Origin: Rhodanobacteraceae bacterium
GTDB lineage: Bacteria > Pseudomonadota > Gammaproteobacteria > Xanthomonadales > Rhodanobacteraceae
NCBI GenBank assembly: GCA_016790075.1
Contig: JAEUPP010000078.1
Coordinates: forward strand, 1-61,230
DNA: 61,230 bases
Direction: 5' to 3'
The position numbers and the translations under genes were made by a program. The notes under the pieces are model-generated. The model saw only the letters and a list, made by a program, of their open reading frames with translations. It did no database searches and was not told the origin of the DNA. Below are positions 13,092 through 25,553 of this stretch, in pieces (position 1 is the stretch's first letter; every line of letters starts with the position of its first letter).

Positions 13092-13925
13092 ATGCTAGAA
13101 GTCAATGCAGTAGGCAAAGCGTTTCCGGTGAAACCGGAAAAGAAGCGTGATGGCGTGGCCGATCCGCGTGAGCAAGGCAAGCTGTTCCACGCCTTGCGCA
13201 ACGTCCAGTTCAGCCTGAAAAAAGGCGTAATCCTCGGTTTGCTTGGCGCGAACGGCGCCGGCAAGACGACGCTGATGCGAATCCTGGCGACGTCGCTCAA
13301 GCCGACCTCGGGTTCGGTCTCGCTGCTCGGCTTCGACATCGTCAAGGACGCTGAAGAAGTACGTAAACGCATCGGCTTCTTGTCCGGTAGCATCGGGCTT
13401 TACGGTCGGCTCAATGCGGAGGAGCTGCTCGAGTTTTACGGCAAGCTCTACGGCTTGACGGCGCCGGTGATCAATGCGCGCATCGCAGCGCTCATCGATG
13501 AACTCGAAATTGGCAGCTTCGCGCACCGCCGCATCGAGACCTTGTCGGCCGGCATGAAACAGCGCGTGTCGATTGCTCGCAGTCTGATCCACTCGCCCGA
13601 GTTCATCATTTTCGACGAGCCAACCACGGGCCTCGATGTGCCGACGGCGCAGGTGATCCTCGGTTATATCGAATCCTGCCGCCATTCCGGCAAGTCGATC
13701 ATCTTCTCGACGCACCACATGCACGAGGTCGAGAAGCTGTGCGACCAAGTGGTGTTGATCCATCAGGGCGCGAATTGTTTTCACGGCAGCGTCGAGGAAA
13801 TGAAACGCACGACCAATTGCGTGCATCTCGACGACGCCTACTTGACATTGACTGGCGAAGCCGCTCCGCACGCGGCGCGGCAGGCGATGCGTCTGGCCAA
13901 GACCGGAACCGGAGGCCGGGCGTGA
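13092..13925 (+). CDS. ABC transporter ATPase (ABC-2/NatA type)
   Basis: A 277-residue nucleotide-binding subunit. Walker A is GANGAGKT, the signature region reads [15 protein letters not shown], Walker B is [12 protein letters not shown], and the H-loop is [10 protein letters not shown]. This pattern is that of NatA/DrrA/CcmA-like ATPases that pair with ABC-2 permeases. The chosen ATG follows an AGGGAG ribosome-binding site by a short spacer; the frame is open further upstream only into the preceding gene. It overlaps the permease gene by one base, so the two are translationally coupled. Likely role: export of the system 1 peptide, or self-resistance. The substrate cannot be told from sequence. 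Confidence 0.93.
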
Positions 13926-15136
13926 TGCGCGGTGCGATTACGATTTTCCTCAAAGACCTGCGCGAGACGCTGCGCAACCGGCGCAATCTGGTGCGCATGC
14001 TGCTGCTGCCGGTTATCCTGCTGCCGTTCGCGGGACACTATTTCCTCTCTTTCACTGACAAACACCGCGAAGACCTGCGCAAGACCACGCTGACCTATGC
14101 GGTGGCCAACGAGCAGGCGCTGCCGGATCTGGTCAAGCTCTATGCCGAGGACGATAGCTTCCAGCGCGTCGACGTGCCGGACGGCAAGGTCGAAGACGCC
14201 GTGCGCAGCAAGAAGGTTCGTTTCGCGCTGCGCATCCCAAACGATGCCGCAGCAAAGCTCAAGGCGGGCGAGGGCGTCAGCATTGAGTTCCTGTATTTCC
14301 AGTCCGATCCCGGCGAAGCGGTGGTCAAGGACCGCGGCACCGCGCCGCTCTTGAGTTACAGCGCGCGCCAGCGCGACTGGCGCCTGGTGTTCCTCGGTTT
14401 CGCCGACGAAGGTACACGTGCGAAGCTGCTTGACCCGGTCAGCTTCACCGTGGTCAACACCGCGCCCGATCGCGAACGTGTCGGCTACGGTCTCGGCGGC
14501 ATCATCGCGTATGCCTTCTTGCTGGTGTGTTTCATGGGCTGTTCGTTTACCGCGATCGATCTGGTGGCAGGTGAGAAGGAACGCGGCACGCTCGAGATCC
14601 TGATCATGCTGCCCTTGCCGCGACTGCAGATCGTGCTCGGCAAGTACTTCGTCATTTTCACGGTTGGCCTGGTCTACGCAACCCTGGCCGCAACCAGCGT
14701 CACCGCGTGGCTGTTGTACGAGGGCAGCGTGGCGTCGAGCCAAGTACGCGAAGTGATCACGCTGATAAAGCCACTCGAGGTCTTTTTGCTTTGGAGCATG
14801 CTGATTCCGGTCACGGCATTGTTCGCGGCGGTGGTGCTGGCGATTTCGGTGTACGCGCGCAGCTACCGCGAAGCAACCACACTGACCGGCTTTGCGAACC
14901 TGTTGGAATCGCTGCTGGTGATGGTCGTGGTGATTCCTGGCATCAGCCTCAACTGGCTTTGGGCAGCGATTCCGGTGTCAAACCTGAGCCTGGTCATCCG
15001 CGAGTTGATCCGTGGCACGCTCGACAACTATCTCGTCGTCGCCACGGTGTTTGCGTTGACGCTTGCGCTCGGTGCGGCCTTGCTGTTGTTCGCGACGGCG
15101 TGGTTCCGGCGTGAGGCGATCATTTATTCGGATTGA
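13925..15136 (+). CDS. ABC-2 type permease (NatB-like)
   Basis: A 403-residue membrane protein whose ATG overlaps the last base of the ATPase stop codon. One transmembrane helix lies near residues 25-45, followed by a soluble periplasmic region of about 150 residues (about 50-190). Then come about five helices, including the conserved cytoplasmic segment DLVAGEKERGTLEILIMLP, which is diagnostic of ABC-2 permeases of the NatB/YhaP group. It should form the channel with the ATPase encoded just upstream. The large periplasmic loop is a feature of NatB-like permeases. Substrate unknown; the context points to a peptide product or immunity. Confidence 0.92.
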   Translation: MRGAITIFLKDLRETLRNRRNLVRMLLLPVILLPFAGHYFLSFTDKHREDLRKTTLTYAVANEQALPDLVKLYAEDDSFQRVDVPDGKVEDAVRSKKVRFALRIPNDAAAKLKAGEGVSIEFLYFQSDPGEAVVKDRGTAPLLSYSARQRDWRLVFLGFADEGTRAKLLDPVSFTVVNTAPDRERVGYGLGGIIAYAFLLVCFMGCSFTAIDLVAGEKERGTLEILIMLPLPRLQIVLGKYFVIFTVGLVYATLAATSVTAWLLYEGSVASSQVREVITLIKPLEVFLLWSMLIPVTALFAAVVLAISVYARSYREATTLTGFANLLESLLVMVVVIPGISLNWLWAAIPVSNLSLVIRELIRGTLDNYLVVATVFALTLALGAALLLFATAWFRREAIIYSD

Positions 15137-15137
15137 G

Positions 15138-15158
15138 CGGAATGCTGTGCGCATTCCG
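15138..15158 (+). terminator. Perfect 8-bp hairpin between the ABC permease gene and mbtH
   Basis: CGGAATGC and GCATTCCG are perfect inverted repeats around a five-base loop, starting two bases after the permease stop. No run of T follows; the downstream sequence is TGTTCCTTGCTG and then the AAGGAG site of the mbtH-like gene. It is more likely a leaky terminator or an RNA processing/stability hairpin inside an operon than a strong terminator. Confidence 0.45.
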
Positions 15159-15183
15159 TGTTCCTTGCTGAAGGAGAAACACA

Positions 15184-15411
15184 ATGTCCAATTTCGACGC
15201 AGAAGACAAAATCGTCTACCGAGTGGTAGTCAACCACGAGAAGCAATACTCGATCTGGCCGCAGGACCGCGAAAACCCGCTAGGCTGGTTTGACGAAGGC
15301 ACGGCCGGCACCAAGCAGGAATGCCTGCAGCACATCGATCAAGTGTGGACCGACATGCGCCCGCTGAGCCTGCAGAAGCATATGCAGAGCCTGCAGCAAC
15401 AAAATCAATAG
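15184..15411 (+). CDS. MbtH-like protein
   Basis: A 75-residue protein with the MbtH signature: an early Y-x-V-V-x-N-x-E region, the Y-S-I-W-P block (residues about 20-24), P-x-G-W, and W-T-D-M-R-P-L later on. MbtH-like proteins bind NRPS adenylation domains and are needed for their solubility or activity. It is preceded by AAGGAG seven bases before the ATG. It is the only MbtH homologue in the window and could serve A domains of both systems. Confidence 0.95.
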
Positions 15412-15424
15412 GGACCGGAGCCCC

Positions 15425-15730
15425 ATGGAGACGCTGGTAGAAAAGCTGGCGCGCGGGCAGCACCCGGTCGCGCTGATCCGCTATCGCGATGTGGCCGAGG
15501 TGGAGGCCGCGCTCACACGTGGCTTCCTGCTAGTCAAATTCACCGGAACCGAAGGCGGCACCGAGATCGGCCTGGAACTCGATCCCGCGGCGACGGCGCT
15601 CGACCGCAGCAGCGGAACGCTCGCCGTGTGTGGCGCGTTGACGCTGGACTTCGCGCCGGTGAAGTGCGCGTTGACGGTAGATCTGGCCACGTTGCGAGGG
15701 CAGGGCGCGCTTCGCGCCGTTCCGGCTTGA
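15425..15730 (+). CDS. Small hypothetical protein beside mbtH
   Basis: A 101-residue protein 13 bases downstream of the mbtH-like gene and in the same direction. I do not recognise the family. There is no signal peptide or transmembrane helix. The sequence starts with an amphipathic helix (LVEKLARGQHPVALIRY) and then alternates short hydrophobic strands with acidic stretches (FLLVKFTGTEGGTEIGLEL), suggesting a compact alpha/beta or beta-sandwich fold of about 100 residues. The tight spacing argues for co-transcription with mbtH and the downstream secreted protein. No function is proposed. Confidence 0.75.
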   Translation: METLVEKLARGQHPVALIRYRDVAEVEAALTRGFLLVKFTGTEGGTEIGLELDPAATALDRSSGTLAVCGALTLDFAPVKCALTVDLATLRGQGALRAVPA

Positions 15731-15795
15731 AGCCGCTGCGGCCGCGACCGGAAAACCGCCGATTCGAATCAAGGGCACACTGACAAGGAACGACC

Positions 15796-17196
15796 GTGTA
15801 CACGATCCAACGAATTTCGCATGCACCGCAACGAATTTCGCCTGCACCGTGGCTGTACCGCCTGCTGTTCGCCGTCGTCAGCCTGATCGCTGGTACTGCA
15901 CCGTGTTTCGCTCAAGACGCCGCTGACGGTGCTCTGCTCGGCACCTGGCAGGGCAATCTTTCAATCAACCCAACCACGCACCTGGCGATCCAGTTCATTG
16001 TCGAGCGCGATGCACAAGGCAAACTCAGTGCGCACCTCAACGCGCCGAACGAGCCAAATCTGCAGAACATCGCCGTCACACGCACCACGTTCAGTGCCGG
16101 CAAGGTTGAATTCACCGTAGACGAGGTCAACGGCAGCTACGAAGGCACGCTGCACGATCGCGCTATTGCCGGCAAATGGAAACAGAACGGCGCGGAGTTC
16201 GATCTGGCGCTCGCGCCGTACGTCGTGCCGAAAGTACCGGCACAAGTCGCCGCGCATCTGGATGGCCCATGGCACGGCACGCTGAACGTGCCGAACACGG
16301 ACATGAAAGTGCCGCTCGTAATCAACTTCAAGAAAGACGCGGGCGCACCCAGTGGCATGAGCGCGACGCTCGACAGCCCCAATCAGGCGGCGTTCGGCAT
16401 GCCCGCAGAAGTCAAGCTTGAGGACAACATTGTGAGCGTGACCGTGCTGCGGCCGAAAATGGCCTTCAGCGGTAAAATCGAAAAAGATCAGCTCGTCGGC
16501 CGCTGGCTGCAAGGCGGTTCAGCGGCGATGAATTTCATCAAGGGTCAGGACGAAACCGTATCGCTCACCGTCGACGAAACCGCGCGCAAGCGCCTCGCCG
16601 GCGACTGGTATGGCGAATTCAGCAACGGTATCGGCATCGCGCTGCGCTTCAAGCAGGAGACGAACGGCAAGTTCCTGGCTTACCTCGACAGCCCGCACGA
16701 AGGGCGCAGGGGCATCCCGCTCGACAAGGTGACGCTCGACAGCGATCACCTCCTGCTCGGCGCTGGCGCAATCCGCATGAGTTTCGACGGCAAGCTCGGC
16801 GCAGACACGATCGCCGGCAGTTTCTCGGCCAACGGTCCGCCGCAGAACGTCGTGCTGAAACGCGGCAACTACACGCAGCAGACGTTCCGTCTCACGCAAG
16901 AGCTGGCGCAGAAGCTGTCCGGCCGCTGGGACGGCAAGGCTGCGAACACGAATATGACCTTGCGTTTCGAGGTCAGCGCCAACGGCGAAGTTATCGGTCA
17001 GCAGGACATCCCGAATCGCCAGATGTTCGCACTGCCCATCACCGACCTGGCCTTTGACGGCGAGAACCTGAAGCTCACGGTCAAGGGTATTTCGGCCGAA
17101 TTCAAAGGCAAGCTGGTGAAGAACGAAATGAGCGGCGACTGGACCATGCCGAGCCTGCAGTTTCCGCTGACGCTGTTGCGCACGGCGCTCAAGTGA
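15796..17196 (+). CDS. Secreted protein with four tandem about 100-residue beta repeats
   Basis: A 466-residue protein starting at GTG with AAGGA six bases upstream. An N-terminal signal peptide (hydrophobic core about residues 20-35, likely cleaved near CFA-QDA) is followed by four tandem copies of one domain. The copies begin near residues 48, 153, 262 and 372 with G-T-W-Q-G, G-P-W-H-G, G-D-W-Y-G and G-R-W-D-G, and each ends in a G-x-W or G-x-F segment before a short strand. The module, with its L-D-S-P-N/H-x-G-x-x-G-x-P core, resembles the beta-rich N-terminal domain found in front of some secreted alpha/beta hydrolases, but no hydrolase domain is present. It is probably a periplasmic binding or scaffold protein. 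Function is unknown; its position between mbtH and the chlorination cassette suggests a link to the product. Confidence 0.8.
   Translation: MYTIQRISHAPQRISPAPWLYRLLFAVVSLIAGTAPCFAQDAADGALLGTWQGNLSINPTTHLAIQFIVERDAQGKLSAHLNAPNEPNLQNIAVTRTTFSAGKVEFTVDEVNGSYEGTLHDRAIAGKWKQNGAEFDLALAPYVVPKVPAQVAAHLDGPWHGTLNVPNTDMKVPLVINFKKDAGAPSGMSATLDSPNQAAFGMPAEVKLEDNIVSVTVLRPKMAFSGKIEKDQLVGRWLQGGSAAMNFIKGQDETVSLTVDETARKRLAGDWYGEFSNGIGIALRFKQETNGKFLAYLDSPHEGRRGIPLDKVTLDSDHLLLGAGAIRMSFDGKLGADTIAGSFSANGPPQNVVLKRGNYTQQTFRLTQELAQKLSGRWDGKAANTNMTLRFEVSANGEVIGQQDIPNRQMFALPITDLAFDGENLKLTVKGISAEFKGKLVKNEMSGDWTMPSLQFPLTLLRTALK
15808..15849 (+). repeat. 21-bp tandem duplication in the signal-peptide region
   Basis: Two adjacent 21-base copies beginning CAACGAATTTCGC differ at one base. 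They encode QRISHAP and then QRISPAP in the positively charged N-region of the signal peptide of the four-repeat protein, lengthening it in frame. This looks like a recent slippage event. Confidence 0.85.
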
Positions 17197-17210
17197 GCGG
17201 AGCGATTCCC

Positions 17211-18077
17211 ATGCAGATAACCCAACTGACTGACGTGGCCGGCCACGAGCTGCGCGATGCCTACCACGTCGCCGGCGACGACAAGCCGTGGATCCTGCTC
17301 GTGATCCCGTTCGGCCTCGATGTGCGCATGGCGGCCGCGTTTTTCGAGTTCTTTGGCACGCACTACAACGTGTGCACGCTGGAAAGCCGTCTGATCCTCG
17401 ATCCGTCGGAGCGCGAATACCAGGTCGCCGATTTCAGCATCGACAACCACGCCGCGGACCTGATCGCCGTACTCGACGAATTGCGCGTGCGCGAGGCGAT
17501 CCTGGTCGGCTATTGCTCCGGCGCCGGCATCGCGTTGGCTGCGATCAACCTGGCGCCGAACCGCTTTTCCGAATTGGTGCTCGCACATGGCGAATACACC
17601 TTGCTCGCCGAGGCGAAATGCACGACGCAGTTCGCCGCCGACATGGACACGCTGCTCGGTCTCGCCGCGAGCAGCGCCGAGCGCGCACAGCTAGTGTTCG
17701 ACAAGATCCAGTCCGAACGTTTCGACGGCGGCCCGAACCGGCCGCAAGGCCTGGACCAGCCGTTCAGCGAGCTGCGTATCCTGAAGCGCTACGCGCGCAA
17801 CTACCTCGCGTACAAGTCCGAGGACTACCTGGGCATGGCGCGCGATGTCTCGCATCCGACTCTGCTGATGGCCGGTGGCAAGGACGTACAGGTCAACGTC
17901 GAGAGCTGCCGCAAGCTGCACGAGAACATGCCGCACGCGAAATTGTTCGTCGATCCCGACGCCGACCACTACGGTGTGCTGACGTCCGATTCGGCGACCT
18001 TGATCGCGATCTGGAACTTCATCTGCGAGAACGCCTATGCACGCAGTCATCGACGTGTCCATTCACGCGGTTTTTAA
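17211..18077 (+). CDS. Alpha/beta-fold aminoacyltransferase with Cys nucleophile (SyrC/CmaE type)
   Basis: A 288-residue alpha/beta-hydrolase-fold protein. The nucleophile elbow is G-Y-C-S-G-A-G, so the nucleophile is Cys (Cys102) instead of Ser. A late Asp (GGKDVQVN) and a His (DADHYGV) complete a triad. Cys in this position is the hallmark of SyrC and CmaE, which shuttle an aminoacyl group from a stand-alone carrier protein to an NRPS carrier domain after halogenation. The stand-alone A, carrier protein and halogenase genes follow directly, and this frame overlaps the A gene by 41 bases. I chose ATG 17211, with AGCGGAG upstream; a GTG at 17193 overlapping the previous stop is also possible. 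The donor would be the chlorinated aminoacyl-carrier protein. The acceptor module is not obvious in the window and may lie upstream. Confidence 0.85.
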   Translation: MQITQLTDVAGHELRDAYHVAGDDKPWILLVIPFGLDVRMAAAFFEFFGTHYNVCTLESRLILDPSEREYQVADFSIDNHAADLIAVLDELRVREAILVGYCSGAGIALAAINLAPNRFSELVLAHGEYTLLAEAKCTTQFAADMDTLLGLAASSAERAQLVFDKIQSERFDGGPNRPQGLDQPFSELRILKRYARNYLAYKSEDYLGMARDVSHPTLLMAGGKDVQVNVESCRKLHENMPHAKLFVDPDADHYGVLTSDSATLIAIWNFICENAYARSHRRVHSRGF

Positions 18078-19554
18078 GCAGCGTGTGGCGCAACACGCAC
18101 ACGCGATCGCTTTGATCGACGGCGAGCGCCAGTTCAGTTACGCGACACTCGATCGCCTGGCCGATGCGCAGGCCACGCGCCTGCGCGCTGACGGCGTCGG
18201 GCCTGGCGACATCGTCGCGCTGTTCATGCGGCGCTCGGCCGAGATGTTCGTGGCGCTGCTTGGAATCCTCAAGGCGGGCGCGGCGTTCATGCCGCTCGAC
18301 GCCGGCAATCCGGCGACGCGCAACCGCTTTTGTCTCGACAAGGCGCGTACGCGTCTGATCGTAACCGACCGCGACTGCGAGGAGCTGCTGAGCGAGACGC
18401 GGCGCGCTGTGCGTGTCGATCTCGACGCGCCGGCGCCGGCCGAAGTCGCAGAGCCGTACGCGGGCAACGGCGAAGACACGGCCTACGTCATGTTCACGTC
18501 GGGCACGACCTCGGAACCGAAAGGTGTGCTCGTGCCGCACCGCGCGGTGACGCGCCTGGTACTCGACACCGATTACGTGCGGATCGAGCCGAGCGACGCG
18601 ATCCTGCAGCTTTCGACGCCGAGTTTTGACGCCTCGACGTTCGAGATCTTCGGCGCGCTGCTGAACGGTGCCACCCTGGTGCTCTACACCGGTGAGGTGC
18701 TCGATCCGAACTTATTCAAGCAGCACGTCGAGCGTCACCGCATCAGCGTGCTGTGGCTGACCGCGGCGTTGTTCCATCTGTTCGTCGACAAGTATCTTGA
18801 AGCCCTGCGACCGTTGCGCGTGCTGCTCGCAGGCGGCGACGTGCTGCATCCAGGCGCCGTTCGGCGCGTGCTCGACGAGATCGACGGCATCACGTTGATC
18901 AACGGCTACGGACCGACAGAGAACACAACGTTCACCTGTTGCCATGTGATGACGCGTGCGAATGCGCCGCACGGCGACAAGGTGCCGATCGGGCGACCGA
19001 TCCGAGGCACCGAGGTGCTGATCCTCGACGAGCAGCGCCGGCCAACGCTGCCGGGCGAGGTTGGAGAACTCTATGCCGCTGGGCGCGGTGTCGCGCTCGG
19101 CTATCTTGGCAGCGAAGGCGTCGAGGGCGCGTTCTTTCACGACAGCGCGCTCGCTGCTGGACGCTTGTACCGTACTGGCGATCTCGTGCGCTGCAACGCC
19201 GATGGCTTGATTGAATTTCTCGGTCGGCGCGACAGCCAGATTAAATTGCGCGGCTACCGGATTTCATTGGAGGAGATCAAGGCGCGTCTGATGCAGATGC
19301 CTGCAATCAAGGAAGCTGCTGTGACGTGCCAGGAGCTCGAGAACGGCGACCAGCTACTGGTCGCATACGTGCGCGCGGACGAAAGCGACGGTCTCCAGAG
19401 CAAGACGGTACGCAAGTACCTGGCCGAGCACCTGCCGCGCTACATGATTCCCGACAAGATCTCGATCCAGTCGGAAATCCCGATCAACCAAAGCGGCAAG
19501 ATAGACAGAAACAAGCTGTTTTCCAACACGCACGCATTCGGAGGCCGTGTATGA
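18037..19554 (+). CDS. Stand-alone adenylation domain, Val-type pocket
   Basis: A 505-residue free-standing A domain with no C or T domain. Core motifs are present: A3 FTSGTTSEPKG, A5 GYGPTENT, A7 YRTGDLVR, A8 around QIKLRGYRISLEEI and A10 NQSGKIDR with the catalytic Lys. The hand-read pocket code is DAFWLGGTFK, one conservative change from the familiar Val code DAFWIGGTFK. It should load Val onto the carrier protein encoded immediately downstream, whose start overlaps its stop by four bases (ATGA). The arrangement matches CytC1/CytC2/CytC3 and SyrB1/SyrB2/SyrC, in which a dedicated A domain prepares an aminoacyl carrier protein for halogenation. Confidence 0.93.
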   Translation: MHAVIDVSIHAVFKQRVAQHAHAIALIDGERQFSYATLDRLADAQATRLRADGVGPGDIVALFMRRSAEMFVALLGILKAGAAFMPLDAGNPATRNRFCLDKARTRLIVTDRDCEELLSETRRAVRVDLDAPAPAEVAEPYAGNGEDTAYVMFTSGTTSEPKGVLVPHRAVTRLVLDTDYVRIEPSDAILQLSTPSFDASTFEIFGALLNGATLVLYTGEVLDPNLFKQHVERHRISVLWLTAALFHLFVDKYLEALRPLRVLLAGGDVLHPGAVRRVLDEIDGITLINGYGPTENTTFTCCHVMTRANAPHGDKVPIGRPIRGTEVLILDEQRRPTLPGEVGELYAAGRGVALGYLGSEGVEGAFFHDSALAAGRLYRTGDLVRCNADGLIEFLGRRDSQIKLRGYRISLEEIKARLMQMPAIKEAAVTCQELENGDQLLVAYVRADESDGLQSKTVRKYLAEHLPRYMIPDKISIQSEIPINQSGKIDRNKLFSNTHAFGGRV

Positions 19555-19799
19555 CACCGCAACAGATCCAGAACCTGATCGTATCGCTGTTCAAGGAGAA
19601 GGAGAGCTTCAAGGACATCGGCCTTGACGAGGACTATTTCGACCTCGGCGTGTCGTCGTTGACCATCGTCGGCTTGCAGATCCAGGTCGAAGAGCAACTT
19701 GGCGTCAACCTGAGCACGCGCGATCTAATGCTGCTGTCCACGATCAATCAATGGGTGCAGGCCTATACCGCCAAATGCGAAGAACTGACCTCGGCCTGA
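19551..19799 (+). CDS. Stand-alone peptidyl carrier protein
   Basis: An 82-residue carrier protein. The phosphopantetheine site is [13 protein letters not shown], with Ser36 as the attachment residue before Leu. The motif departs from the usual GGxSL in the way seen in free-standing carrier proteins of halogenation cassettes. The start overlaps the stop of the A gene by four bases. It would carry Val as the substrate of the halogenase 38 bases downstream, and then be the donor for the Cys-type aminoacyltransferase. Confidence 0.93.
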
Positions 19800-19837
19800 G
19801 CGCCGCACGACCGTCACGAAACCCTGGGGGCAAGAGC

Positions 19838-20776
19838 ATGAGCAAGCAATTTGCATTCACCGCGGAGCAGCTAAAGTCATTCCGCGAAAACGGCTACGCA
19901 GGTCCGTTCGATGCGTACGACCAGAACGAGATGAAGGAAACCTATAAAAAACTTCGCGCCGAAATCTTCGACCGTAGCCATGCGATCTACGATCTCGAGC
20001 ATTCGAGCCTGCTCGCCGGCTACGACCGCCATCTCGACATTGATTTCTTCAGCCGTCACATCATGCGTCGCCAGATCCTGGACAAGGTCGAAGGCATCCT
20101 CGGCCCAAACCTGCTGTGCTGGCGCTCGGAGATGTTCCCGAAATATCCGGGTGACGAAGGCACCGACTGGCACCAGGCGGACACGTTCGGCCATGCCTCG
20201 GGCGCGCCGCAGGTCGTATGGCCGATGAACACGGACTTCGGTGGTGCGATCACGGTATGGACCGCGGTGACGGACGCTGACAAGGAAAACGGCTGCCTGC
20301 GTTTCATCCCGGGCACGCACGAGGAAATGCACTACGACGAAACCAAGGAAATGAAGTATTCGCCGGAACAGGTCAACAAGCTGGAAAAGAACGGCATGAA
20401 GTCCGGCTTTTTCGGCTACGACTACCGCAACCTGCAGAAAGACCCGAGCTGGGTGCCGGATGACGCCAATGCCGTGTCGATGGAAATGAAGGCCGGCCAG
20501 TTTGTGATTTTCTGGTCGACCCTGATGCATGCTTCGTGGCCGAACACGTCGAGCAACCGTACGCGCCTCGGCTTCACCGCGCGCTACGTACCGACCAGCG
20601 TACGTATCTATCCGGACACCGACGTGATCAACGAGTACGGCAGCAAGCTATCGCTCGACAAATACGGTGTCGTGCTCGTTTCGGGCCAGGACGAATACAA
20701 GCACAACAGGCGTCTGCTGAAGAACGCGCGCGGCCTGGAATTCGCGACCGCGCTGGACGAACTCGAAACCGCGTGA
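19838..20776 (+). CDS. SyrB2-type non-heme Fe(II)/2-oxoglutarate amino-acid halogenase
   Basis: A 312-residue PhyH-fold protein close in length and motif order to SyrB2 (310 residues). The decisive motif is [13 protein letters not shown]: His112 is followed by Ala114 where hydroxylases have Asp or Glu. The open iron site lets chloride bind, and this is the diagnostic change of the halogenases. The second iron ligand is His231 in TLMHASW, and Arg249 (TARYVP) should bind 2-oxoglutarate. SyrB2 equivalents are His116, Ala118, His235 and Arg254. Such enzymes chlorinate an unactivated carbon of a carrier-tethered amino acid. With a Val-type A domain next door, gamma-chlorovaline is the simplest prediction, as CytC3 does with Val. 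No CmaC-like cyclopropane-forming gene is seen. The ATG follows a GGGGG-rich ribosome-binding region. Confidence 0.94.
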
Positions 20777-20888: not shown

Positions 20889-23800
20889 ATGTCCGACACT
20901 GCCGTTCCGAGCGTGACCGTTCCGTTCAGCCGTGCGCAGGCGCGGCTGTGGCGGCTCGAACGCCTCGCCGCCGCCAAATCCAAGCCGAACGCGGTGTTGT
21001 GCTATCGCGTCGACGGAGTCTGCGAGGTCGATGCCCTACGCGCCGCACTGCGGGATATCGTCGCTGCACAGCCGGATTTCCATTCGAGACTGAGCGTGCA
21101 AGACGATGCCCCGGCGTGGCGGCGCGAAGCACTCGAAAGCGTTGAACTTGTCTGCACGGAGCTGGTGCTGCCGGCGGCGGATGCGCACCTGCCGCTACCC
21201 GTGCAGCGCGCCTGGCAAACCGAGCGCGTGTATGCGTTCGCGCTCGAACGGGAAGCACCACTGCGCCTGCGCTGGCTGGCGGATGCGGCCGGTGCACGCG
21301 CTTGGCTGCTGCTCACGTTCCATCCGCTGGTCATGACGCGCGCAGGCTTGGAGCAACTGGCACGGCGTGTCGAGACGCAATTCGGCGCGTCGCGGCCTGA
21401 TATGCCGGTTGTACAGTGCACGGATGCCGTAACGCGCGACGCCTACATCGAGCAAGCCGCGGCGGCGCGTGTGCTGCTCGAATTTCCGACCGATCGCGCG
21501 CGCTCGCCGATCAAGGATTTCACCACCGCCAGTTTCACGTTCCGGCTCGATGCCGCAGAATTGCCGCTGGACGAGTCGCCGTATTTGGCTTTGTTGACGG
21601 CGTTCGCGGTTGGCATCGGCCGCTACGCGCAGCAGTCTGCGCTGACGCTTGGTGTGGCAGACCTGCGCGATGCCGGACGCGCGCCGGCGCATGCCGCGAC
21701 CACGTTCGAGCATGTGCTCGCGCGCTGCGCGCTGATGCCGGTGAGCACGTTCGGTGATGTACGCGCAGCGCTGGCGCAATCGCTCGAACTGGCTTTTGCG
21801 GCGGCCCGCGATGTCGCGCTCGAAAGCCTGCCCTCGAATGGCGCAGGACTGCACGACATGGCCGTTGCACCGTTCTGCCAATTTGCGTTCAGCTACCGAG
21901 AACCCGAGACACCGCCGTGGCAAGTCGGAGCCGTAACCTGGCGGCGCTGCGTGCCGGCCGAACCGGAGCGTTCGTTCAGCCACAGCGAATTGGAATTGCA
22001 TGTGGAGCCGGCGTCCGAGGGCGGTCTGCTGTGCCGACTCGAGTATTCCAGCGCGCTGTTCGAGCACGAAACGGCCGTCGCGTTCTGCGCGCACCTGCGC
22101 AACTTGCTCGCCGCGGTGTGCAGCGAACCGCAGCGTGCGCTGGACGAGTGCGACTTGATGAGCGACGCAGAGCGCGCGGCACTGTTCACGCGCAGCGGTC
22201 CGGTGCAAGAGTTGCCCGTGGTGACGCTGGAGCGGCTGTTCGCACGGCAAGCGCTGCGTCAGCCGGAAGCAATCGCCCTGGTCGACGGCAGCCACGCCTA
22301 CAGTTTCGGCGTTGCCCAACGCTACGCCGACGCTCTGGCGGAGCATCTCGCTGCGCGCGGCATCGGTGAGGGCGATCGCGTCGGCGTGTATCTGCCGCGT
22401 TCGGCCGCCTTCGTGATTGCGGTGCTCGCGGTGCTGCAGCGTGGCGCCGTGTACGTGCCGCTCGATCCGGGCTTCGGCGCGGCGCGCGCGGACGCGATCA
22501 TCGCCGACGGCGACTTGCGCTGCGTGCTGCATGATTTACCGACGGCGCACGACGACCCGCGCTGGCTGCGCTTCGAATGGCGCCTCGCCGCTGCGTCGCC
22601 GCCGCTTGAATCGATTACACGCTCGATCGACGCGCCTGTCTACGTGCTGTACACCTCGGGTTCCAGTGGCCGGCCGAAAGGCGTGATCGGCACGCATCGT
22701 GCGGTACTCAATCGCCTCGTGTGGGCGGAGCAGGCGCTGGCGCTCGCTGCGGACGACGTGTTCTGTCTCAGCACCAAGACCGTATTCGTCGATCATGTCG
22801 CGGAAATGTTTCAGCCGCTGCTGCACGGTCGCCGTCTCGTCATTGCGCCGGATGCGACCGTGCTCGACGCAGCCGCCTTCGCGGCTCTGATCGCGCGAGA
22901 GCGCATCACGCGCCTGACGCAGGTGCCGTTCGCGCTCGCGCGTTTGCTCGATGCGGCGCCGACCGACGCTCTCGCTGCACTGCGTTCGATCACATGCAGC
23001 GGCGACGTGCTCGACGCCGCGCTGGCGCGCCGCTGCTTGGCCGCGCTGCCAGCGACGCGCCTGTTCAATCTTTACGGTTTGACCGAGACCGGTGCGGACA
23101 GTAGCTGCGCCGAGATCACCGCCGCCTCGCTTGGCGATCTGGCTGATTTCTTCCGCGGTGCGCGCGTCGGTGCGGCACTGGGCGTACCGGACGACGGCGG
23201 CGAGTCCGCGTTCACCGTACCCGACGTCAGTATGGACGCGCTGCGCGCCCGTTTCGCTGCGACCGAACTGCCGGCGGCGCCGCGGACGATCGAGGCCTAT
23301 ATGGCCTGGCTCGAACGCGATGTACTGCCGTACGTGGTCGACGTCGGCCGCGGCACATTCATCGGCCACATGACTTCGGCGCTGCCTGACTTCATGGTCG
23401 CGCTCAGTGCGATGGTCGCTCGCCTGAACCAGAACATGGTCAAGGTCGAGACCTCGAAGTCGCTGACTTTGCTCGAACGCCAGCTACTGGCGATGCTGCA
23501 CAAGGAGTTCTTCGCCCAGCACGGTTACGCCGAACGAATCCAGGATCCGGAACATGTGTTCGGCCTGATCGTCAGCGGCGGCACCAGCGCGAATATCACG
23601 GCACTATGGAACGCGCGCCAAGCGGCGGTGCTGGCGCTCGGCTATGACAAGGCCGAACTGATTGAACATGGTGCGCCGGAACTGCTGCGCCGGTCCGGCT
23701 ACGAAGGCTGTGCCATCATCAGCTCCCGCCTGGCCCACTATTCGCTGCGCAAGGCGGCTTCGTTGCTCGGTCTCGGCGAACGCCACCTCGTCTACCTGCG

Positions 23801-25553
23801 TCAAGATGCGCAGCAACGCGCCGACTGCGCCGACCTCGAAGCAAAGTTGACGCAGTGCCGCGCCGAGCGCCGCCTGCCGATCGCGGTCGTCGGCATCGCC
23901 GGCTCGACCGAAACCGGCGTGATCGATCCGCTGCCGCAGATGGCGGCGATCGCGGCGCGCCACGGCGTGCATTTCCACGTCGACGCGGCGTGGGGCGGCG
24001 CGATGATCTTCTCTGAACGCTACCGCGGCCTACTCGACGGCATCGAGCGCGCGGACACGATCACGCTCTGCCCGCACAAGCAATTGTACGTGCCGCAAGG
24101 CATCAGCCTGTGTTTGTTCAAGGATTCACAGCGCCTGCACGCCAGTTCCGTCCAAGCGAACTACCAGGGCCGCCGTGGCAGTTTCGACGCCGGCCAGTAC
24201 ACGCTTGAAGGTTCGCGTCCGGCGATCTTCCTGGCGCTACACGCCATGCTCAGCATCGTGTCGAAACGCGGCGTCGGCGCACTGATCGAGCAAGGCATCG
24301 CGCTGACGCGCCATTTCGCCGAACTGATCGACAAGCACCCGGCGTTCGAACTCGTGGCGCCGCCGCAGATCAATATTCTCAACTACCGCTACATCCCGCG
24401 TGCACTCCGGCCGAAACGGCACTACAACGCGACCGAGAACCGCGTCATCAGCGCCGCGGTCGGCGCGATCCAGCAGCGCCAGTTCCTCAACGGCAAGACC
24501 TTCGTCTCACGCACCGACCTGATGCATCAGGCCTACGGCGACGAACGCATTACCGTGTTCCGCGTGGTCATCGCGAATCCGCTGACCACACCGGAGGATT
24601 TGCGCGCGACGCTGGCTGACCAGCTCGAAATCGCCGCAGCCTGCGTCGAGACCACATCCGCCGAAGCCAGCGCGGAGCCGTGGCACGAGCCGGAAGCGTG
24701 GCAGCGGCGCACGTGCAACGCCGTGCCGATCGGTCGCCCGATCGCGAATACCGAGATCCTGGTGCTCGACGCGCGACGTCGGCTGCTGCCGGCCGGCCTG
24801 GTCGGCGAACTATACGTCGGCGGCGACGGCCTCGCCGCGGGCTATGTCGAGTGCGATGCGACCCCGGCAGCGTTCGTGCCGCATCCGTACAAGCCCGCGG
24901 CACGCCTGCTGCGCACCGGCGATTTCGGCCGCTGGCGCGCGGACGGGCAGCTTGAATTCGCCGGCCGCCGCGACCAGCAGGTGAAAATCCGCGGCATGCG
25001 TGTGGAGTTTGCCGAAGTCGAGGCCGCGTTGCTTGCGCTGGCCGAGGTCAAGCACGCGGTCGTGCTGGCAGAGCAGCGCGAAAGCGACACCCGCCTGGTC
25101 GCGTACGTGGTGCCCGTTGCGACGATGGAAATTCCCGTGGCGGCGTTCGAGCGCACGCTGCGCCGCCGTTTGATCGCGACGCTGCCGCTGCATCTCGTGC
25201 CGCCGGCGATCGTCTTGCTGGACACGCTGCCAGCCTTGCCCAGCGGAAAGGTCGACCGCCGCGCGCTCCATGCCGCGCACGCCGCTGGCGATGCGCCGCA
25301 AACGCGCCTCGAACACGGGGTTGCGCTGCGCCTGCGTGCGATCTGGCAGCGGCTGCTGGATCGCGACGACATCGCCATCGAGGACGACTTCTTCGAGGTC
25401 GGCGGCCACTCGCTCGCAATCGCTGCGCTGCAGGGCGAGATCCGCCGCGAGTTCGGTCTCTTGCTCAGCCTGCAGACCTTGTACGAACACACACGGCTCG
25501 AACACCTGGCGCAGCACGTCGACGCACTGCGCGACGAGGCATTGTCCGTGTGA
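20889..25553 (+). CDS. NRPS module with embedded PanP-like aspartate decarboxylase: C(degenerate)-A[decarboxylase]-T
   Basis: A 1554-residue protein. Residues about 10-420 are a C domain in which HHxxxDG has become HPLVMTR (His145-Pro146), so it is probably inactive. Residues 440-740 carry the A domain to motif A5 (YGLTETG). Residues about 742-1260 are a complete group II PLP decarboxylase of the PanP type: FIGHMTSALPDF, QNMVKVETSKS, FHVDAAWGGA (Asp1032), PHKQLYVPQG with PLP Lys1064, TLEGSRPA, and FRVVIANPLTT at its end. The A domain then resumes before motif A6 with VPIGRPIANTE and GELYVGG, and finishes with A10 LPSGKVDR. A T domain (GGHSL, Ser1508) ends the protein. The pocket code is VDATTSLADK, close to the published beta-alanine code VDWVISLADK. 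PanP enzymes make beta-alanine from aspartate, so this module likely supplies its own substrate. ATG 20889 is preferred to the TTG at 20877. Confidence 0.93.
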   Translation: MSDTAVPSVTVPFSRAQARLWRLERLAAAKSKPNAVLCYRVDGVCEVDALRAALRDIVAAQPDFHSRLSVQDDAPAWRREALESVELVCTELVLPAADAHLPLPVQRAWQTERVYAFALEREAPLRLRWLADAAGARAWLLLTFHPLVMTRAGLEQLARRVETQFGASRPDMPVVQCTDAVTRDAYIEQAAAARVLLEFPTDRARSPIKDFTTASFTFRLDAAELPLDESPYLALLTAFAVGIGRYAQQSALTLGVADLRDAGRAPAHAATTFEHVLARCALMPVSTFGDVRAALAQSLELAFAAARDVALESLPSNGAGLHDMAVAPFCQFAFSYREPETPPWQVGAVTWRRCVPAEPERSFSHSELELHVEPASEGGLLCRLEYSSALFEHETAVAFCAHLRNLLAAVCSEPQRALDECDLMSDAERAALFTRSGPVQELPVVTLERLFARQALRQPEAIALVDGSHAYSFGVAQRYADALAEHLAARGIGEGDRVGVYLPRSAAFVIAVLAVLQRGAVYVPLDPGFGAARADAIIADGDLRCVLHDLPTAHDDPRWLRFEWRLAAASPPLESITRSIDAPVYVLYTSGSSGRPKGVIGTHRAVLNRLVWAEQALALAADDVFCLSTKTVFVDHVAEMFQPLLHGRRLVIAPDATVLDAAAFAALIARERITRLTQVPFALARLLDAAPTDALAALRSITCSGDVLDAALARRCLAALPATRLFNLYGLTETGADSSCAEITAASLGDLADFFRGARVGAALGVPDDGGESAFTVPDVSMDALRARFAATELPAAPRTIEAYMAWLERDVLPYVVDVGRGTFIGHMTSALPDFMVALSAMVARLNQNMVKVETSKSLTLLERQLLAMLHKEFFAQHGYAERIQDPEHVFGLIVSGGTSANITALWNARQAAVLALGYDKAELIEHGAPELLRRSGYEGCAIISSRLAHYSLRKAASLLGLGERHLVYLRQDAQQRADCADLEAKLTQCRAERRLPIAVVGIAGSTETGVIDPLPQMAAIAARHGVHFHVDAAWGGAMIFSERYRGLLDGIERADTITLCPHKQLYVPQGISLCLFKDSQRLHASSVQANYQGRRGSFDAGQYTLEGSRPAIFLALHAMLSIVSKRGVGALIEQGIALTRHFAELIDKHPAFELVAPPQINILNYRYIPRALRPKRHYNATENRVISAAVGAIQQRQFLNGKTFVSRTDLMHQAYGDERITVFRVVIANPLTTPEDLRATLADQLEIAAACVETTSAEASAEPWHEPEAWQRRTCNAVPIGRPIANTEILVLDARRRLLPAGLVGELYVGGDGLAAGYVECDATPAAFVPHPYKPAARLLRTGDFGRWRADGQLEFAGRRDQQVKIRGMRVEFAEVEAALLALAEVKHAVVLAEQRESDTRLVAYVVPVATMEIPVAAFERTLRRRLIATLPLHLVPPAIVLLDTLPALPSGKVDRRALHAAHAAGDAPQTRLEHGVALRLRAIWQRLLDRDDIAIEDDFFEVGGHSLAIAALQGEIRREFGLLLSLQTLYEHTRLEHLAQHVDALRDEALSV
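23110..24660 (+). other. PanP-like PLP decarboxylase insert inside the A domain
   Basis: Approximate limits of the inserted enzyme domain, between A5 and A6. All residues expected for a working fold-type I decarboxylase are visible: a Ser/Gly-rich phosphate-binding stretch (SGGTSANITALW), the HVDAAWGG Asp that holds the PLP ring nitrogen, and the PLP-linked Lys in PHKQL. The similarity covers nearly the whole length of PanP and includes its C-terminal NPLTTPEDLR region. It is a full enzyme, not a fragment. The reading frame is continuous on both sides. Confidence 0.88.

Follow-up and report, generated by a model that had tools for sequence, protein, structure and literature searches.

The locus analyzed here raises the question of what a PLP-dependent decarboxylase does inside the adenylation (A) domain of an NRPS. 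In the window (i.e., the whole 61,230-nucleotide stretch of DNA from a Rhodanobacteraceae bacterium), positions 20889-25553 (+, frame +1) form one open reading frame that translates to 1554 residues. Translation, Pfam and NCBIfam assigned the whole gene (20889..25553) the domain order C-like, first A half, PLP decarboxylase, second A half and T. The condensation-like N-terminal region (20889..22193, +; Pfam, motif reading) is followed by the first A half with motifs to A5 (22194..23117, +; Pfam, motifs, pocket alignment), a PLP group II PanP-like decarboxylase insert including linkers (23118..24665, +; conserved core 23232-24632; Pfam, NCBIfam, motifs), the second A half with A6-A10 (24675..25298, +; Pfam, motifs) and a T domain with the motif FFEVGGHSL (25311..25550, +; Pfam, motifs). 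The Pfam matches are AMP-binding at residues 451-740 (1.2e-69), Pyridoxal_deC at 822-1168 (5.7e-40), AMP-binding_C at 1376-1454 and PP-binding at 1481-1544, together with a weak Condensation match (6e-16). The signature HHxxxDG is found neither in the C-like domain of the window protein (TFHPLVMT) nor in that of its Massilia homologue (TFHRFVMT), and this domain is possibly non-catalytic, as judged by its motifs.

All A motifs checked, from A3 to A10, are present. Since A5 (NLYGLTE) lies at 727-733 and A6 (GELYVGGDGLAAGY) at 1306-1319, the insert is located between A5 and A6, and the Pfam and motif positions bear out the sequence-only reading, which had described an NRPS module with a decarboxylase at this site. 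The core motifs are split by a whole catalytic domain within one open reading frame, as in interrupted A domains. Known examples, i.e., the methyltransferases of TioS, TioN and KtzH and the oxidases of IndC and EpoB, also carry a catalytic domain in an A-domain loop. The inserts described in excerpts of PMC11355689, PMC8097286, PMC8795117 and PMC8949500 are methyltransferases, oxidases, monooxygenases and reductases; decarboxylases are not among them. The insertion sites in the PMC8097286 excerpt are A8-A9, A2-A3 and A4-A5, and the A5-A6 site of the window insert falls outside these. As these excerpts describe them, methyltransferase inserts modify a carrier-bound amino acid, whereas the window insert would make the substrate before adenylation.

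The sequence-only reading had known of no PLP decarboxylase at such a site; as a claim of novelty this fails, given JamL (UniProt Q6E7J8, the jamaicamide synthase of Lyngbya majuscula). The domain layout of JamL that Milano et al. 2013 (PMC3870968) give in the passages on assembly-line decarboxylases ends in C-HxxPF-A-Pyridoxal_deC-A-CP. In both JamL and the window protein, the A domain is split by Pyridoxal_deC and followed by a carrier domain (A-PF00282-A-CP); JamL differs in being a PKS-NRPS hybrid chain, and the likeness is one of published domain layout only. The same passages cover two assembly-line Pyridoxal_deC domains, that of JamL inside the A domain and that of a Coxiella protein after a C domain. 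They describe the function of the JamL domain as not clarified, list it under diaminobutyrate decarboxylase and note a similarity to glutamate decarboxylase. Further precedents beyond JamL may exist, as the literature search covered open-licence PMC papers. A candidate from solanimycin biosynthesis, SolG, had a high NCBIfam score and was rejected as a precedent, since the word "decarboxylase" is absent from the main text of its paper.

The insert occupies approximately residues 744-1259 with its linkers, and its PanP-like core residues 782-1248. Against NCBIfam TIGR03799 (PanP), residues 782-1248 match profile positions 50-522 at 3.7e-145 and 484.3 bits, and the second-best NCBIfam decarboxylase model reaches 145 bits. 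PanP is the best decarboxylase family for the insert, as the sequence-only reading had proposed; nevertheless, the score misses the equivalog cut-off of the family (606.1 bits). The motifs were found where they had been claimed, FIGHMTSALP at 824-833, FHVDAAWGG at 1029-1037, CPHKQLY with the PLP lysine K1064 at 1061-1067 (24069..24089, +) and NPLTT at 1230-1234. The earlier description of a "complete" PanP-like insert of about 515 residues holds for the catalytic part and fails for the N-terminus, where the start of the PanP profile is absent (match from position 50). Six other fused inserts (L034, L067, L036, L039, L041 and L029) gave 461-527 bits with profile starts of 38-53, and all seven scored fused inserts are below the 606-bit cut-off. 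Four standalone proteins scored as whole frames (from Vibrio, Geobacter, Ralstonia and a cyanobacterium) gave 626-989 bits with starts of 1-24. The upstream part was included in this scoring for the first five of the six inserts and for the standalone proteins, while L029 was trimmed ahead of its match, which limits the start position visible. The insert thus shares with PanP its best family match, the catalytic residues and the FIGHMTSALP and NPLTT blocks, and differs from it in several respects: it is embedded, its N-terminus is shortened, its score is under the cut-off, and it groups with the other fused domains in a clade. By its sequence, it is PanP-like, embedded and shortened, and not a certified PanP.

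Conservation was examined in an alignment of 15 fused rows and 26 of 66 standalone rows (L119 and L121, introduced below, are outside it). Among 76 columns invariant in the 26 standalone PanPs, 70-74 are kept by the 15 fused rows and 72 by the window protein. H950, D1032, H1063, K1064, Y1092 and R1110 are identical in 15/15 fused and 26/26 standalone rows, the lysine being invariant in 41/41 aligned rows. From group II structures, we take the roles of these six residues to be PLP stacking, contact with the pyridine nitrogen, the Schiff-base lysine, proton donation and an arginine for the alpha-carboxylate. The residue discussion in PMC3870968, as excerpted, was also used for assigning the catalytic roles. 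Between the window and Massilia proteins, the most conserved segment is the insert, with 64.5% identity (C, 38.9%; N-terminal A half, 51.8%; C-terminal A half, 53.1%; T, 45.2%).

Genome contigs of 84,980 species genomes were scanned for relatives of the insert, and the best 80 of 580 were kept. In 14 of these 80 loci, the decarboxylase is immediately flanked by an A half on either side within one frame; the remaining 66 have decarboxylase frames of 522-661 aa without A halves. Within the best 80 of 580, the fused loci belong to Pseudomonadota (Massilia, Jeongeupia, two Motilimonas, a gammaproteobacterial MAG, Thiomargarita and Parabeggiatoa), Cyanobacteriota (Plectonema, Richelia and Acaryochloris), Bacteroidota (Chryseosolibacter and Aquimarina), Fibrobacterota (Fibrobacter) and one SAR324 MAG, whose phylum is unsettled in the taxonomy used. 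Two further genomes (loci L119 and L121) also carry the fusion, which brings the total to at least 17 genomes (window, 14 scan loci, L119 and L121), a lower bound because the best 80 of 580 relatives were examined. L010 (genome G055), identical to L067 over 4461 bases, was counted once. The survey for the same fusion that had been suggested as a check therefore yielded at least 16 further genomes, and the recurrence at the same site rules out an assembly chimera, the artifact that the sequence-only reading had named as fatal to it. A chance open reading frame or pseudogene was likewise rejected, given the open 1554-aa frame and the conserved insert and catalytic residues. The 1554-aa protein is a real, intact and conserved member of a rare known architecture. 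The L121 product is a 1064-aa A[decarboxylase]A protein with an intact-looking decarboxylase and a decayed A domain, in which A3 reads YTAGLTGRSKA.

The rarity of the architecture was estimated in overlapping samples of genomes around the window, with matches to the insert counted at E <= 1e-60. The phylum sample had matches in 35/398 genomes, only the window's being fused by frame length. In the class sample, 12/369 genomes matched; two were fused (own and G966), and frame length marked the other ten as standalone. The order sample had 5/398, three fused (own, G055 and G552), one standalone and one fragment at a contig end, and in the family sample the window's own was the single match among 233 genomes. 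Among the loci listed, the nearest fused relative of the window protein is that of Massilia. This relationship and the single match among the 233 genomes of the family suggest that the gene was transferred horizontally.

Phylogenetic analyses addressed the origin of both parts of the fusion; L119 and L121 are in no tree. The decarboxylase tree was built without L009 (a repeat of the window), L010 (from the genome of L067) and the fragment L011. In it, the 15 fused decarboxylases form one clade (100/100) with one standalone member, from Grimontia (L047). The best tree places the Grimontia protein inside the fused group, and strict monophyly of the fused decarboxylases was not rejected (p-AU 0.158; tested with 26/66 standalone rows). 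The A-domain tree was built from 31/44 rows chosen by hand, and the survey behind it required at least 230 positions and 30 bits per hit and excluded the own-genome loci L002-L008; as the fused A half of L038 is absent from this survey, it contains 14 fused rows, not 15. Fused A domains and unfused ones of the VDW type form one clade (100/99), in which the fused ones share a sub-clade (84/81) with a single unfused A domain, that of Chryseosolibacter. Because this unfused domain nests among them, strict monophyly was rejected for the fused A halves (p-AU 7.6e-5). The simplest story is one insertion, followed by wide transfer and occasional loss or release.

The Grimontia decarboxylase (L047:9905-11458) is encoded next to a thioesterase in an NRPS operon. 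Scored as a whole ORF, it gave 434 bits with a profile start of 43, like a fused insert. By these sequence properties, it is maybe a released insert. An A domain of the operon has the code DLTKMGEV, which we take to be Asp-like. Elsewhere in the locus, approximately 600 residues of an NRPS (L047:5699-7498) lie between C and T domains at the place expected for an A domain, and this region had no significant Pfam match (best E 0.043).

A standalone protein nested in the fused clade, as well as the retention of the insert by L121 in spite of its decayed A domain, would fit an insert that merely feeds the general beta-alanine pool, its location in the A domain being incidental, or one that is a structural relic. 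The pleosporacin system may be read in the same direction, since pleosporacin was produced by a host that had only pleA and pleB and not the decarboxylase PleC (PMC12177691, in excerpt). We consider both versions very improbable. The catalytic residues are conserved, and no other segment is as similar between the window and Massilia proteins as the insert, which argues against a relic; that distant phyla share the fusion site and an almost uniform pocket code argues against an incidental location.

The substrate of the surrounding A domain was approached through its pocket. The pocket letters come from an alignment anchored on A4 and A5, and the register at 235, 236, 239, 278, 299 and 301 agrees by eye with a HMMER alignment to a solved NRPS. 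The window pocket consists of V235, D236, A239, T278, T299, S301, L322, A330 and D331, giving the code VDATTSLADK; that of Massilia is VDATASIADK. The 15 distinct fused rows all conform to the pattern [VI]D[AV][TVIL][TAIF]S[LIV][AG]D, and L119, read by eye, has VDATVSIAD. In total, 16/17 fused pockets are close to VDA(T/V)xS(L/I)ADK; the remaining one is the decayed L121, in whose A domain, also read by eye, neither acidic pocket residue is left and the A3 motif is abnormal. The code of A domains that activate beta-alanine is VDWVISLADK, and beta-alanine is a constituent of jamaicamide, the product of the JamL pathway. The window code equals it in 7/10 letters, with Ala in place of Trp239, and in the fused pockets the Asp is shifted from 235 to 236, as in the beta-alanine code. 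A text search of open-licence PMC papers for the beta-alanine code returned no paper. Asp-type A domains have a basic residue in the pocket. In 15/15 fused rows the first nine pocket positions are free of K, R and H, and hence show nothing that would hold an extra carboxylate.

Unfused A domains were also informative. A standalone PanP is encoded in seven cyanobacterial loci, none longer than 21 kb; four of them (L049, L052, L099 and L103) contain unfused VDW(I/V)xS(L/V)A A domains and three (L064, L083 and L102) do not. These VDW-type domains near standalone PanPs, and the pocket code of the 15 fused rows, support the beta-alanine reading of the earlier note. Next to its fused A domain, Chryseosolibacter (L031:2479-8238) has an unfused one with the code VDATFSIA, an arrangement consistent with a free product that can be shared. 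At position 239, all 15 fused rows have Ala or Val and six unfused VDW domains have Trp; on account of this residue, and of a small residue at 299 in window and Massilia, the fused pocket may be larger than beta-alanine needs, most so in these two proteins.

With moderate confidence, we favor a self-supplying beta-alanine module. The embedded PanP-like PLP domain would decarboxylate free L-aspartate at the alpha-carboxyl, releasing CO2 and beta-alanine. The A domain around it has a pocket that resembles those of beta-alanine domains rather than aspartate domains; it would adenylate the resulting beta-alanine and then load it onto the C-terminal T domain. As the C-like region has no HHxxxDG, it is probably non-condensing, and the loaded residue would probably be handed on in trans. 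Aspartate as the substrate, the order of the reactions and the loading of the T domain are predicted from sequence, and it is fair to infer that synthesis and activation of beta-alanine are coupled on one polypeptide. Self-supply is favored by PanP being by far the best decarboxylase family (484 vs 145 bits), and weakened by the seven fused inserts under the PanP cut-off with a shortened N-terminus and by the decayed A domain of L121. Related supply of beta-alanine has been described for free-standing enzymes. According to excerpts of the respective reports, bacterial XabD (xenoamicin; PMC12668312) and fungal PleC (pleosporacin; PMC12177691) are Asp decarboxylases feeding beta-alanine modules, as proposed here, and DtxS4 (destruxin) makes beta-alanine from Asp for an NRPS module; all three, unlike the insert, are free-standing. 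A wider version of the self-supply reading, in which a make-and-activate module of single origin spread over at least four named phyla and SAR324, with the guest domain passing its product directly to its host independently of the cellular pool, is possible, and we put it forward only tentatively.

A different order of events is known from VinN/VinO and BtrJ/BtrK, pairs of separate proteins that work by decarboxylation on the carrier. Applied to the fused protein, the A domain would load L-Asp via its beta-carboxyl on T, and the insert would decarboxylate beta-aspartyl-S-T to beta-alanyl-S-T. Aspartate loading of the VinN/VinO type involves a basic pocket residue for the alpha-carboxylate, and such a residue is absent from the first nine positions in 15/15 fused rows. 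This lack of a carboxylate holder in the nine variable positions, the proteins of L031, L036 and L121, which stop after the A domain with no T recognized in the same ORF, and the unfused A domain of the same code in L031 led us to weight the on-carrier route lower. The insert also retains nearly all standalone-PanP residues, and overall we regard this route as unlikely. The small residue at 239 in fused A domains would suit it, as would the profile starts of the seven fused inserts (38-53 vs 1-24 in the four standalone proteins). Milano et al. (PMC3870968), in the passages cited above, propose this very route for embedded Pyridoxal_deC domains on the grounds that their N-terminal domain is lost, which may give a carrier-bound substrate access to the active site, and excerpts of PMC11355689 and PMC8949500 describe methyltransferase inserts in A domains that modify the T-bound amino acid.

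The neighborhood of the fused gene bears on the product into which beta-alanine would be built. A block at 13739-20776 upstream of it encodes a permease, a 466-aa protein, a hydrolase, an A domain, a T domain and a SyrB2-like halogenase, and the same gene order precedes the Massilia homologue (L029), with 49-79% identity; the fused proteins are 50% identical. The 466-aa protein (15796-17196) is 51% identical to its L029 counterpart; at a threshold of 0.001 neither Pfam nor NCBIfam matched it, and its PDB matches did not go below E 0.4. Pfam and comparison with Massilia identified the next three genes, an alpha/beta-hydrolase (17193..18077, +), a stand-alone A domain with the code DAFWLGGTFK (18037..19554, +) and a stand-alone T domain (19551..19799, +). 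The hydrolase, which we liken to SyrC/CmaE, may have an aminoacyl-transferase role; the A-domain code resembles that for Val, and the T domain is the presumed carrier for the halogenase substrate. The halogenase, a SyrB2/CytC3-type non-haem iron enzyme with WHQA (HxA), lies directly upstream of the fused gene (19838..20776, +; NCBIfam, motif), with 19838 as its likely start in an ORF open from 19751; it is conserved in Massilia and matches 2fct at 2.5e-125. From this block and the fused gene, the product of the window cluster probably contains both a halogenated aliphatic residue and beta-alanine. In Massilia, the region downstream of the homologue (L029:12396-18997) encodes a second PhyH protein and a CmlA-type diiron hydroxylase.

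The tailoring enzymes bring up another candidate, a substituted beta-amino acid made and activated instead of beta-alanine, e.g., from 3-methyl- or 3-hydroxy-aspartate. Ala239 with Thr/Ala299 in window and Massilia leaves more room than Trp239 of the VDW domains, and such a substrate would sit well with the halogenase of the window cluster and the two additional Massilia enzymes. Against this, Pfam named no modified-aspartate enzyme among the 24 window proteins scanned, the six catalytic positions all match those of standalone PanPs, and nearly the same code occurs in fused relatives from other clusters. We think it improbable, and beta-alanine remains the substrate we favor.

The general beta-alanine supply of the organism was considered separately. 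The window's genome (G000) has no recognizable PanD match, while panC is present; PanD occurs in 53/59 sampled genomes of the family. Two of the three other genomes sampled from the same genus (G001 and G003) have neither PanD nor a close match to the insert, so the absence of PanD is independent of the fusion.

As an architecture, an A domain split by a Pyridoxal_deC domain had already been published. The present analysis adds a family, its likely substrate and an order of reactions that can be tested, and the JamL case can now be set beside a family with a nearly uniform substrate signature. If the self-supply reading is true, making the monomer in place would join the known roles of guest domains in A domains, and the fusion would help to predict beta-alanine modules from sequence and could serve NRPS engineering as a natural self-supplying part.
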